Of a DNA stretch of 9,683 nucleotides, positions 1,308 to 5,980 are shown one piece after another. Under the pieces are notes generated by a model. The model made no database searches. It was not told the origin of the DNA and worked only from the letters and a program-made list of their open reading frames with translations. The position numbers and the translations under genes are program-made. The stretch spans positions 1 to 9,683 of the forward strand of contig SPBQ01000050.1 of NCBI GenBank assembly GCA_004525875.1, read 5' to 3'. Origin of the DNA: Myxococcales bacterium. GTDB lineage: Bacteria; Desulfobacterota_B; Binatia; UBA1149; SPBQ01. Position 1 is the first letter of the stretch. Every line of letters starts with the position of its first letter.

Positions 1308-1382
1308 GGAATGCATACAGTCAATGCCTGACGATGGCAAGGCCGCCGACCCATGAGCGTCCGCCGCGCGGAGGAAGCTCGC

Positions 1383-1859
1383 ATGCATGAAAAACTCACC
1401 GCGGGTGACACGTTCCCGACCATCACGCTGGAACTGCTCGAAGGCGGCACCCTCACGCTTCCCGCCGAGCTACCGACACCACTTGCGGTCGTGTTGTTCT
1501 ATCGCGGCCATTGGTGACCGTTCTGCCGTCGGCAGCTGGCCGGCTATGAGGCGATCAAGCAGCGATTCGCGGACGCGGGCGGGACGGTGTACGCGGCCGC
1601 CGTCGATTCGGCGGAGAAGGCGAACGAAGTCAGAGCCGACGTGAGCTTTCCGCTGGCGATCAACGTTACCAAAGCTCAGTCCGACGAAGTGAGGGCGTGG
1701 TGGAACGGTGATCGCAACTACATGCAACCTGCCGAGTTCATCATCAACGCCGATGGGCTGATCTTGTCGGCGACCTACAGCACCGGGCCGATCGGGAGAC
1801 TCGACGCGGAAGACGCCGTGACGATGGCGCCCCTGCTCGGCCCCGGTGGCCTCTCCTAG
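1383..1859 (+). CDS. Peroxiredoxin-like (AhpC/TSA-type thioredoxin-fold) protein, probable selenoprotein with UGA-encoded Sec45
   Basis: Read from the ATG at 1383 to TAG at 1857-1859, this is one intact 158-residue frame interrupted only by TGA at 1515-1517. The translation matches the peroxiredoxin-like redoxin family along its length: A-G-D-T-F-P near residues 7-12, the strand A-V-V-L-F-Y-R-G-H-W at 35-44, then TGA at 45, P-F-C-R-R-Q-L from 46, and a late block Q-P-A-E-F-I-I-N-A-D-G followed by T-Y-S-T-G-P-I-G-R-L. The family has W-C-P-(F/Y)-C here, so TGA replaces the first, attacking cysteine while the second (Cys48) is kept, giving a UxxC redox centre. Bases on both sides of the TGA remain clean coding sequence without frameshift. 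GGAGGA at 1370-1375, seven bases before ATG 1383, fixes the start; an in-frame ATG at 1353 lacks such a site. The predicted role is reduction of peroxides or disulfides in the cytosol. The alternative is a very recent nonsense mutation (TGC to TGA is one change). No sel genes lie in the window to decide. Confidence 0.78.
1518..1553 (+). promoter_or_regulatory. Bacterial SECIS-like hairpin directly after the in-frame TGA
   Basis: A six-pair stem GTCGGC (1528-1533) / GCCGGC (1539-1544, one G-U pair) closes a five-base loop AGCTG (1534-1538). The upper stem begins 10 bases after the TGA and the loop begins 16 bases after it. A lower helix CGTT (1519-1522) / GGCG (1550-1553), with two G-U pairs, is separated from the upper stem by a 5x5 internal loop. 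Bacterial SECIS elements sit inside the coding region just after UGA, have a small apical loop with G among its first bases (here the second base), and in E. coli fdhF the SelB-binding minihelix starts about 11 bases after UGA. A competing hairpin, CTGCC (1523-1527) with GGCAG (1531-1535), is possible. Confidence 0.6.
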
Positions 1860-2753: not shown

Positions 2754-4253
2754 GTGGCAGACTTCGCGGCTAAATCTTTCGGAGAGCACTCCTCATTGGA
2801 CAACCACGACTCGCTACGCATTGCCATCATCGGCGCCGGCCCGGCCGGCCTCGCCGCCGGGCACGAGCTGCTCGCCCAGGGCTTCACGAGCTTCACGCTC
2901 TATGAAGCGACCGACGCGGTAGGGGGCACGTGGCACATCCTCACCTACCCAGGCCTGGCCTGCGACGTCTGGGCTCACTCCTACACGTTCTCCTACCGCC
3001 CCAACCCCGACTGGACGGCGAGCTTCGCCGAGCAACCGGAGATCGAGGCCTATCTGCAAACGTGCGCGGAGGAGTTCGGACTCATGCCGCATGTCCGGCT
3101 TAACACGCGCATCGCGAGTGCGCTCTATCAGGGCGACGGGGTCTGGCAGCTGGAGAGTGAGGGCGGTGAGATCTTCGAGTGCGACGTCGTCATCAACGCG
3201 ATGGGCAACCAGCACACGCCCTTGTATCCGGACGTGCCCGGCATGGACAGCTTCGAGGGGCCGAGCTTCCACGGCACTCGCTGGCACCACGACGTCGAGC
3301 TGAAGGGAAAGCGGATCGCGATCGTCGGCTCGGCCGCGAGCGCCGTTCAGATCGTCCCGGAGGTGGCCAGGATCGCCGAGCACCTCACCGTGCTGCAGCG
3401 ATCGGCCAACTGGATCATGCCGCGCGGACGCAAGCCGTACTCGGAGTCGAAGCGCGCGCGGTTTCGGCGCTTTCCGGTGCTCGTGCGAATGACCCAGCGA
3501 TTCCAGCGCTTCCTGATGGGCTTCGTCCACCCCGCCGTCACGCTCGGCAACAAGCGGATGGACGACTTCGAAAAGCGTGCGCGGAAGTTCATCGACTCGG
3601 CGATCCCCGACCCGGAGATGCGCAGGGAGCTGACGCCGACCAGCCGCTTCGGTTGCAAGCGCGCCCTGGTCTCCGACGATTTCTATCCCGCACTCATGCT
3701 CGATCACGTGGAGCTTGTGCCGGAGGGGCTGGCCCGGGTACGCCCGCAGGGCATCACGGCCGCCGACGGCCGCGAGATCGATGTCGACGTGATCATCTAC
3801 TGCACGGGCTACAAGGTTCTCGACTTCGATCGCATCAACGTCATCGGAGAGAACGGCAGAACGTTGGCAGAACAGATGGCGGATGCACCCATGGCGCACA
3901 AGGGAATCGCCACTCCGGGCTTCCCGAACTACTTCTTCGCCGTCGGTCCCAACGGCATGGTCCTGAACGTCCCCTACTTCATCACGGTCGAAAGGAACGT
4001 GGAGAGCATCGTGGGCCTGCTCGTCGAGAAGGAGGTGGCCGCTGCCCGCGCCATCGCCGTGAAGCCCGAGGTGCATCGCGCCTACAACGAGTGGATGGAT
4101 ACGCAGTTCCCGCGGTACTCATGGGGCAACGGCTCGTGCAGCAGCTACTACATGAACGCTGCGGGGCGAGCGCCGTTCTTGTTTCCGGGCGATTTCGCCA
4201 CCTACGCGAAACTACACGGCGAAGGCGGACTCCACGAGTACGAGGTGCGCTGA
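2754..4253 (+). CDS. Flavin-containing monooxygenase, Baeyer-Villiger type (NAD(P)H- and FAD-dependent)
   Basis: The 499-residue protein has the two-dinucleotide-fold layout of class B flavin monooxygenases. The FAD Rossmann motif I-I-G-A-G-P-A-G is at 25-32 and is followed by G-G-T-W and Y-P-G-L-A-C-D-V. The Baeyer-Villiger fingerprint appears as F-E-G-P-S-F-H-G-T-R-W-H at 167-178, matching FxGxxFHxxxW but with His where Pro or Asp is usual. The NADPH fold is V-G-S-A-A-S-A at 191-197, and the late C-T-G-Y motif is at 350-353. It probably inserts oxygen into a ketone or aldehyde, or oxygenates a heteroatom; the substrate is not predictable. The start is uncertain. GTG 2754 gives the longest frame without a clear ribosome binding site, while TTG 2796 (residue 15) has GGAG at 2781-2784 upstream. 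It is divergent from tetR and convergent with the lipoprotein gene (10 bases between stops). Confidence 0.88.
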   Translation: MADFAAKSFGEHSSLDNHDSLRIAIIGAGPAGLAAGHELLAQGFTSFTLYEATDAVGGTWHILTYPGLACDVWAHSYTFSYRPNPDWTASFAEQPEIEAYLQTCAEEFGLMPHVRLNTRIASALYQGDGVWQLESEGGEIFECDVVINAMGNQHTPLYPDVPGMDSFEGPSFHGTRWHHDVELKGKRIAIVGSAASAVQIVPEVARIAEHLTVLQRSANWIMPRGRKPYSESKRARFRRFPVLVRMTQRFQRFLMGFVHPAVTLGNKRMDDFEKRARKFIDSAIPDPEMRRELTPTSRFGCKRALVSDDFYPALMLDHVELVPEGLARVRPQGITAADGREIDVDVIIYCTGYKVLDFDRINVIGENGRTLAEQMADAPMAHKGIATPGFPNYFFAVGPNGMVLNVPYFITVERNVESIVGLLVEKEVAAARAIAVKPEVHRAYNEWMDTQFPRYSWGNGSCSSYYMNAAGRAPFLFPGDFATYAKLHGEGGLHEYEVR

Positions 4254-5230: not shown

Positions 5231-5980
5231 CTATGCCCCCGCCGCCTCCGGAGCACTCCGACGTGTTACCGACACCATCCCCTCCAGCGTGGTAAGAATC
5301 CGATCGCAAGCCGCGAGCGCGGTCTGTGCCGAGCCGTAGACGCCCATGATCTTCGCGGCGCTGGTCCGCTCGCCGACCAGGTACAGCCCATCCACGCCCT
5401 CCGCTTCGATGTCGACCAGCGAACGGCCGACGTTGCCCGGCGTCTCGATCAACGTGGCGGGGCCGAAGGAGCGCAACGTCCACAGCGCGTTCTCCGCAAG
5501 GCCCGGGAACAGCGCTCGTACGTCGGCGTCCCAGTCCTCGAAGAGTTTCTTGAGCGCGGCCTTGTGCGACGCCTCGCGCATCTGGAACACGTTCGGCTTG
5601 TCCCACCAGCCGATCTGCATCCAGAGCGAGACCTCGGTGCGTTTCTTGTCGTCGAAGTAGCGCAGCGAGCTACCGCACCAGGGCCGCTTGGTTACGGGTC
5701 CCTCCTGCACCCAGCGCTGTCCGGTGTCGTCCCACAGGTCGTCGCGATCGATCGCGTAGGTCAGCGTGGCCAAATTCAGTGTCTTGCGATGCACGTGCCG
5801 CAGGCGATCGGCGTACCACGGCCGTAGGTCGTCCTCCGATACGATGCTGAAGATATCCCAGATGGCGACGGCGCTCGCGACGATCGACGCCTCGATCCCG
5901 CTGTCTACGAGGCGAAGACGCGGTAGCCCGGCCGCCGGCCCGAAGCCGGTCGAGGACGGGCCACCGACCTGTCCTTCCAA
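5231..5980 (-). pseudogene. FAD-dependent oxidoreductase (phytoene-desaturase/amine-oxidase-like), C-terminal half only
   Basis: The 249-residue frame has the C-terminal part of a flavin oxidoreductase. From about residue 30 it reads as a coherent substrate-domain sequence (A-S-A-V-A-I-W-D-I-F, then D-L-R-P-W-Y-A-D), and it ends with the family's FAD-closing signature G-L-Y-L-V-G-E-R near residues 209-216, followed by K-I-M-G-V-Y-G-S-A-Q-T-A. Full-length relatives are about 450-550 residues and begin with a GxGxxG FAD fold. That half is absent here and is not present on either side in any frame I checked. The first 30 residues look non-native. The only start is TTG at 5980, without a clear ribosome binding site. 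Upstream, the frame is open back to the TGA stop of the small gene at 6017. I read it as the remnant left by an internal deletion. A stand-alone domain translated by coupling to the upstream gene is possible but less likely. Confidence 0.6.

Follow-up and report, generated by a model that had tools for sequence, protein, structure and literature searches.

The window, our name for the whole 9,683-nucleotide stretch of Myxococcales DNA analysed here, most probably encodes a 158-residue selenoprotein of the AhpC/TSA fold, in which UGA 1515-1517 is read as selenocysteine (Sec) under the guidance of a downstream hairpin and residues U45 and C48 carry out redox chemistry. We put the probability of this reading at roughly 94%. 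An intact frame, a UGA codon conserved in other genomes together with Sec machinery, a covarying hairpin and a predicted fold support it.

A redoxin gene interrupted by UGA

The features of the locus are the following:
1371-1378, plus strand: Shine-Dalgarno-like GGAGGAAG, just 5' of the ATG at 1383, read from the sequence
1383-1859, plus strand: probable selenoprotein gene of 158 residues with U45 and a TAG stop at 1857-1859 (translation; PF00578, PF08534)
1515-1517, plus strand: UGA codon 45, probably read as selenocysteine (TGA at the same codon in homologues from 30 other genomes)
1524-1526, plus strand: codon of Cys48 in the UxxC motif (translation)
1528-1544, plus strand: SECIS-like hairpin, with a stem of 1528-1533 paired to 1539-1544 and the loop AGCUG at 1534-1538 (folding and comparative tests)
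1587-1859, plus strand: open reading frame (ORF) from an internal GTG, the expected product of a gene caller, lacking the active site (ORF list; P0002)

An earlier note on this DNA had proposed that the TGA replaces the first Cys of RGHWCPFC within a clean frame that runs from a Shine-Dalgarno-preceded start at 1383 to the TAG. Translation bears out both points: TGA 1515-1517 is the sole internal stop, it specifies residue 45 of RGHW-U-PFC, and GGAGGAAG lies upstream of the ATG. The UGA thus occupies the Cys position of homologues, with an open frame downstream, and forms a UxxC motif, U45-P-F-C48. The readthrough product, with Cys in place of U, matches Pfam AhpC-TSA (PF00578; E 1.2e-15, 58 bits against a cut-off of 26) and Redoxin (PF08534; E 1.2e-08). 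Since the AhpC-TSA match spans residues 8-127, homology extends on both sides of the TGA. Third-position GC is 0.70 5' and 0.83 3' of the TGA, compared with 0.70-0.86 in the neighbouring genes. Relative to L095, the nearest genomic relative, dN/dS is 0.31/1.28 before the TGA and 0.39/1.00 after it, which indicates constraint on both halves of the gene.

A divergent GST-like gene lies upstream (649-1257). An Rfam scan of the whole window gave zero matches. Comparison of ten window proteins with 13 regions from relatives revealed no conserved neighbourhood: apart from the redoxin, only an FMO-like gene was shared, about 5 kb from the redoxin in one of the 13 regions. The window also contains, at 5231-5980 on the minus strand, a 249-residue ORF without a Pfam match, which by eye looks like the C-terminal portion of an FAD-dependent oxidoreductase, possibly one without its N-terminal portion.

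Database relatives frequently lack the active site. A first protein search returned 23 relatives, some full-length with Cys and others of about 107 residues that begin just past the UGA. A profile search returned 1069 proteins, and the best 120 of these included 111 not seen before; the RGxW active-site motif is present in none of the 111, and 97 of them share the same start place as judged by start pattern. Short sequences make up most of the profile's rows, which biases the listing towards short proteins. The expectation of the earlier note that gene callers would hide the active site therefore holds for all 111 newly listed relatives. P0002 (92 residues) is a database protein of the internal-GTG kind and comes from the window; P0111, among the matches listed, belongs to Candidatus Rariloculus, a gammaproteobacterium.

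Such short C-terminal proteins in gene-caller output would be expected if the UGA terminated translation and an internal start gave rise to a separate product. We regard this as highly improbable, because the short protein would be devoid of the active-site motif of its fold, the 44 codons upstream of the UGA are conserved, and the hairpin described below covaries.

Conservation of the UGA and of the selenocysteine machinery

Besides the window, 30 genomes carry TGA at the aligned codon (2 + 13 + 13 + 2 by search set). TGA was found in two of the three matching genomes from the order of G001, a Gammaproteobacteria MAG (194 searched), in 13 of 18 from the phylum of G009, a Myxococcales MAG (282 searched), and in 13 of 15 from the phylum of G002, a Chloroflexi MAG (151 searched). 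In the order of G810 it was found in eight of nine (79 searched), two of which were additional genomes. The 30 include distant kin such as L107-L110, L112, L153 and L154, which share 26-46% identity over the aligned parts. The UGA is conserved across independent homologues. G671 was excluded from the counts: its match, located at the end of a contig, contains a TAA and begins only past the active-site position. A class sample of G001 gave matches in seven of 369 genomes, none with an internal stop. A scan of GTDB contigs, one of whose patterns demanded Cys, retained 80 of 110 loci, and in every one of the 80 the codon is TGC or TGT. Residue 45 of homologues is accordingly either Cys or UGA, and the frames of the UGA-bearing relatives are undecayed; the earlier note had suggested looking for both.

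These observations bear on the possibility that an ordinary Cys redoxin gene has acquired a nonsense mutation or been misread in sequencing. Cys homologues do exist, and the TGA of the window rests on a single sequence. Recurrence of TGA at the same codon in 30 other genomes nevertheless excludes chance, and with the frame intact and under persistent constraint past the TGA (dN/dS), we consider a mutation or error very unlikely.

G735 carries a pair of neighbouring UGA redoxin genes. The second, L097 (963-1127, minus strand), lies near the first, reads FYRGFW-U-PPC with TGA at the aligned codon, and has six of six hairpin pairs. One stretch among viral contigs matched a search pattern, and no relative was found among them; 18 plasmid records matched, each with less than 60% identity.

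The Sec machinery was compared between 15 UGA genomes (13 from the phylum of G009, plus G055 and G195) and five Cys-only controls (G001, G804, G803, G722 and G760), of which G001 and G804 are the closest and the other three have more distant homologues. SelA was detected in 15/15 UGA genomes and 0/5 controls. SelD over the cut-off was present in 14/15 and 0/5, with a partial match of 100 bits in G744, and tRNA-Sec above 60 bits likewise in 14/15 and 0/5, with G824 at 46.5; the best tRNA-Sec score among the controls, 48.8 in G760, is just above Rfam's 47. SelB over the cut-off was found in 14/15 and 0/5. The exception, G810, is the nearest genomic relative of the window by the tree and has SelA, SelD and tRNA-Sec. 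In G055 (contig C50) and G195 (contig C99), selA adjoins selB, and tRNA-Sec lies within about 6.3 kb and 4.4 kb, respectively, of this set. The figures for SelA, SelD and tRNA-Sec cover these 15 UGA genomes and five controls. In Chloroflexota, SelB exceeds the cut-off in 13/13 UGA genomes and also in 2/2 Cys-only genomes; the Cys form can thus be compatible with the Sec trait in one genome.

Across the 282 genomes from the phylum of G009, SelB exceeds the cut-off in 153 and tRNA-Sec was found in 180, borderline scores included; the Sec trait looks common in this phylum. The SelD matches in G805, G623 and G788 each contain one in-frame TGA, and SelD is probably itself a selenoprotein in these genomes.

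The earlier note's suggestion of a probable selenoprotein is thus supported via relatives, through the recurrent TGA, the Sec machinery and the covarying hairpin. From these we infer Sec insertion in the source organism, where SelB and Sec-tRNA would decode UGA 1515-1517. Reassignment of UGA to tryptophan, making residue 45 a Trp, is the least probable of the alternatives. The database relative P0004 does read RGHWWPFC, with Trp in place of Cys or Sec, although this is possibly a TGA translated as Trp by the gene caller of its source. Against reassignment, UGA serves as a normal stop for another ORF of the window, 2754-4253, full-length homologues have Cys at the place of residue 45, and relatives encode SelA, SelD and tRNA-Sec.

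A SECIS-like hairpin downstream of the UGA

The hairpin at 1528-1544, which may guide Sec insertion, has a 6-bp stem and a 5-nt loop, begins 11 nt past the UGA and places the loop 16 nt from it. Scored at these fixed positions, the 17 UGA genes including the window form on average 4.71 of six pairs, compared with 3.60 ± 0.21 in synonymous versions (0/2000 as high). The 96 Cys rows, in which some genes are counted twice (L001 and L087 are one gene), form 2.27 compared with 2.30 (336/500 as high). Both sides change in six of six pairs, and the covariation score of 0.337 exceeds that of 500/500 shuffles and of every slid version. A second set of 14 Chloroflexota genes, fetched once the positions had been fixed, forms 5.71 of six pairs against 3.83 ± 0.24 in synonymous versions (0/2000); 12 of the 14 have all six pairs, and these 12 represent one clade of close kin. 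Among synonymous versions of the window region, a stem of six occurs in 7/1000. A register 4 nt off pairs nearly as often (4.06 in the 17 UGA genes, 5.14 in Chloroflexota), although it would leave too small a loop, and the distant members L107, L109 and L110 pair better at a spacing of 21.

The support for a SECIS comes from these comparative tests and not from stability or RNAalifold. The hairpin is not unusually stable compared with dinucleotide shuffles (z -0.01), and RNAalifold proposed no consensus structure. Relative to synonymous versions, the region past the UGA is modestly more stable in the 17 UGA genes (median z of -0.64 for 39 nt and -0.62 for 45 nt) than in the 96 Cys rows, again with some genes counted twice (-0.10 and -0.04); the difference has p = 0.017 for 39 nt and p = 0.106 for 45 nt.

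The bSECIS model, as given in the Fig. 2 legend of PMC13188914, specifies a loop of 3-9 nt, an upper stem of 4-16 bp, a G in the first two loop positions, 16-37 nt from UGA to loop and a minimum free energy of at most -7.5. The window hairpin satisfies it, with a loop of 5, a stem of 6, G at loop position 2, a spacing of 16 and -13.4 kcal/mol. The constraints are passed by 27 of 31 UGA genes (the four that fail are L085, L086, L096 and L100) and by 37 of 99 Cys rows, which include genes counted twice. They are also passed by 152 of the 214 TGAs in the window, so a match to them says little.

Predicted chemistry, known relatives and evolution

An AlphaFold model of the protein (pLDDT 91, pTM 0.87) has a helix from residue 46, which would place U45 at the helix N-terminus. 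The putative active site, U45-P-F-C48, thus lies where the first long helix begins. The top fold match is Bcp4 (3hjp; TM 0.80), and ResA variants rank lower. In a profile alignment to 6q5v, residue 45 lines up with the Thr of T-P-V-C and Cys48 with the Cys of that motif, which is the peroxidatic one. The protein therefore departs from the canonical peroxiredoxin Thr/Ser-x-x-Cys motif in that residue 45 replaces the Thr, while fold and family agree. The earlier note had called Cys48 a resolving Cys that is kept. It is indeed kept, but the label is too simple for a residue that aligns with the Cys column of T-P-V-C in solved peroxiredoxins.

We infer the chemistry, substrate and reductant from these features: the enzyme is likely a thiol peroxidase or thiol:disulfide oxidoreductase that uses a U45-C48 selenenylsulfide. 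In the favoured scheme the U45 selenolate would attack a peroxide or disulfide, Cys48 would then form a selenenylsulfide with U45, and a thiol system would reduce it. Peroxidase and disulfide oxidoreductase are close rivals. That the selenoprotein is mainly a thioredoxin-type thiol:disulfide oxidoreductase and not a peroxidase has, in our estimate, slightly less than an even chance: UxxC is a thioredoxin-type motif, both the sequence and the fold searches also matched ResA-type oxidoreductases, and 'Prx-like thiol:disulfide oxidoreductase' is the name used for this kind in entries of the reviews PMC13188914 and PMC9312934. The top sequence and fold matches, in contrast, are peroxiredoxins, with Cys48 in the active-site Cys column.

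Selenoproteins of this kind are already known, as the earlier note had recognized. UxxC Prx-like selenoproteins (PF00578) had been described by 2005, and passages of the relevant papers report 22 Prx-like sequences from the Sargasso Sea (PMC1088965), 225 'Prx-like 1' in GOS (PMC2398784) and eight Prx-like thiol:disulfide oxidoreductases in PMC1794560. As these passages and those of the two reviews present them, the published proteins (PMC1088965, PMC2398784, PMC13188914, PMC9312934) share with ours the Pfam family PF00578, UxxC with UGA first, and Cys homologues. As sources the passages mention marine sets and cultured Geobacter, Syntrophus and Desulfotalea, and the comparison with the RGHWUPFC branch is one of descriptions only. 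TxxU Sec peroxiredoxins, as described in such passages, share the PF00578 fold family, but there Sec comes second, whereas here Sec is first and Cys second. The 'Peroxiredoxin-like family protein' cd02970, as it appears in PMC13188914, is likewise AhpC/TSA with Sec at the first motif position, in UxxS instead of UxxC. SelL-related redox proteins (NCBIfam NF040769) match the redoxin region weakly, at 25.3 bits where the curated cut-off is 120, and the protein scores below the cut-off of every NCBIfam model. The passages retrieved in a literature search cover the general Prx-like UxxC class, and none of them treats the RGHWUPFC branch. Our analysis adds a well-supported branch to this class, together with its compact hairpin and its truncated database entries.

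The tree, built from 53 rows, groups the window with L095 (95/85). At least seven changes between Sec and Cys are required on it, so a single origin of Sec is not supported. The Cys gene of G001 (L001/L087) is nested among Sec genes (94/97), and SelA, SelD, a strong tRNA-Sec and SelB over the cut-off are all absent from the G001 genome. Both observations fit a Sec-to-Cys switch with loss of the Sec trait, which is likely in G001.

Our data raise the possibility, which we judge at even odds, that RGHWU(P/S)xC proteins constitute a large unnamed selenoprotein subfamily in at least three phyla. Its members would share a compact SECIS, with a 6-bp stem 11 nt past the UGA and mostly an AG(U/C)U(G/A) pentaloop, would have switched repeatedly between Sec and Cys, and would appear in databases for the most part as proteins of roughly 107 residues without the active site. 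The gene set offers a conserved compact SECIS together with natural Sec/Cys switches, including the Cys member of G001 among Sec relatives. The findings point to a redox selenoenzyme found repeatedly in uncultured bacteria from three or more phyla. Because automatic annotation shortens it, selenium use in such bacteria is easily missed.
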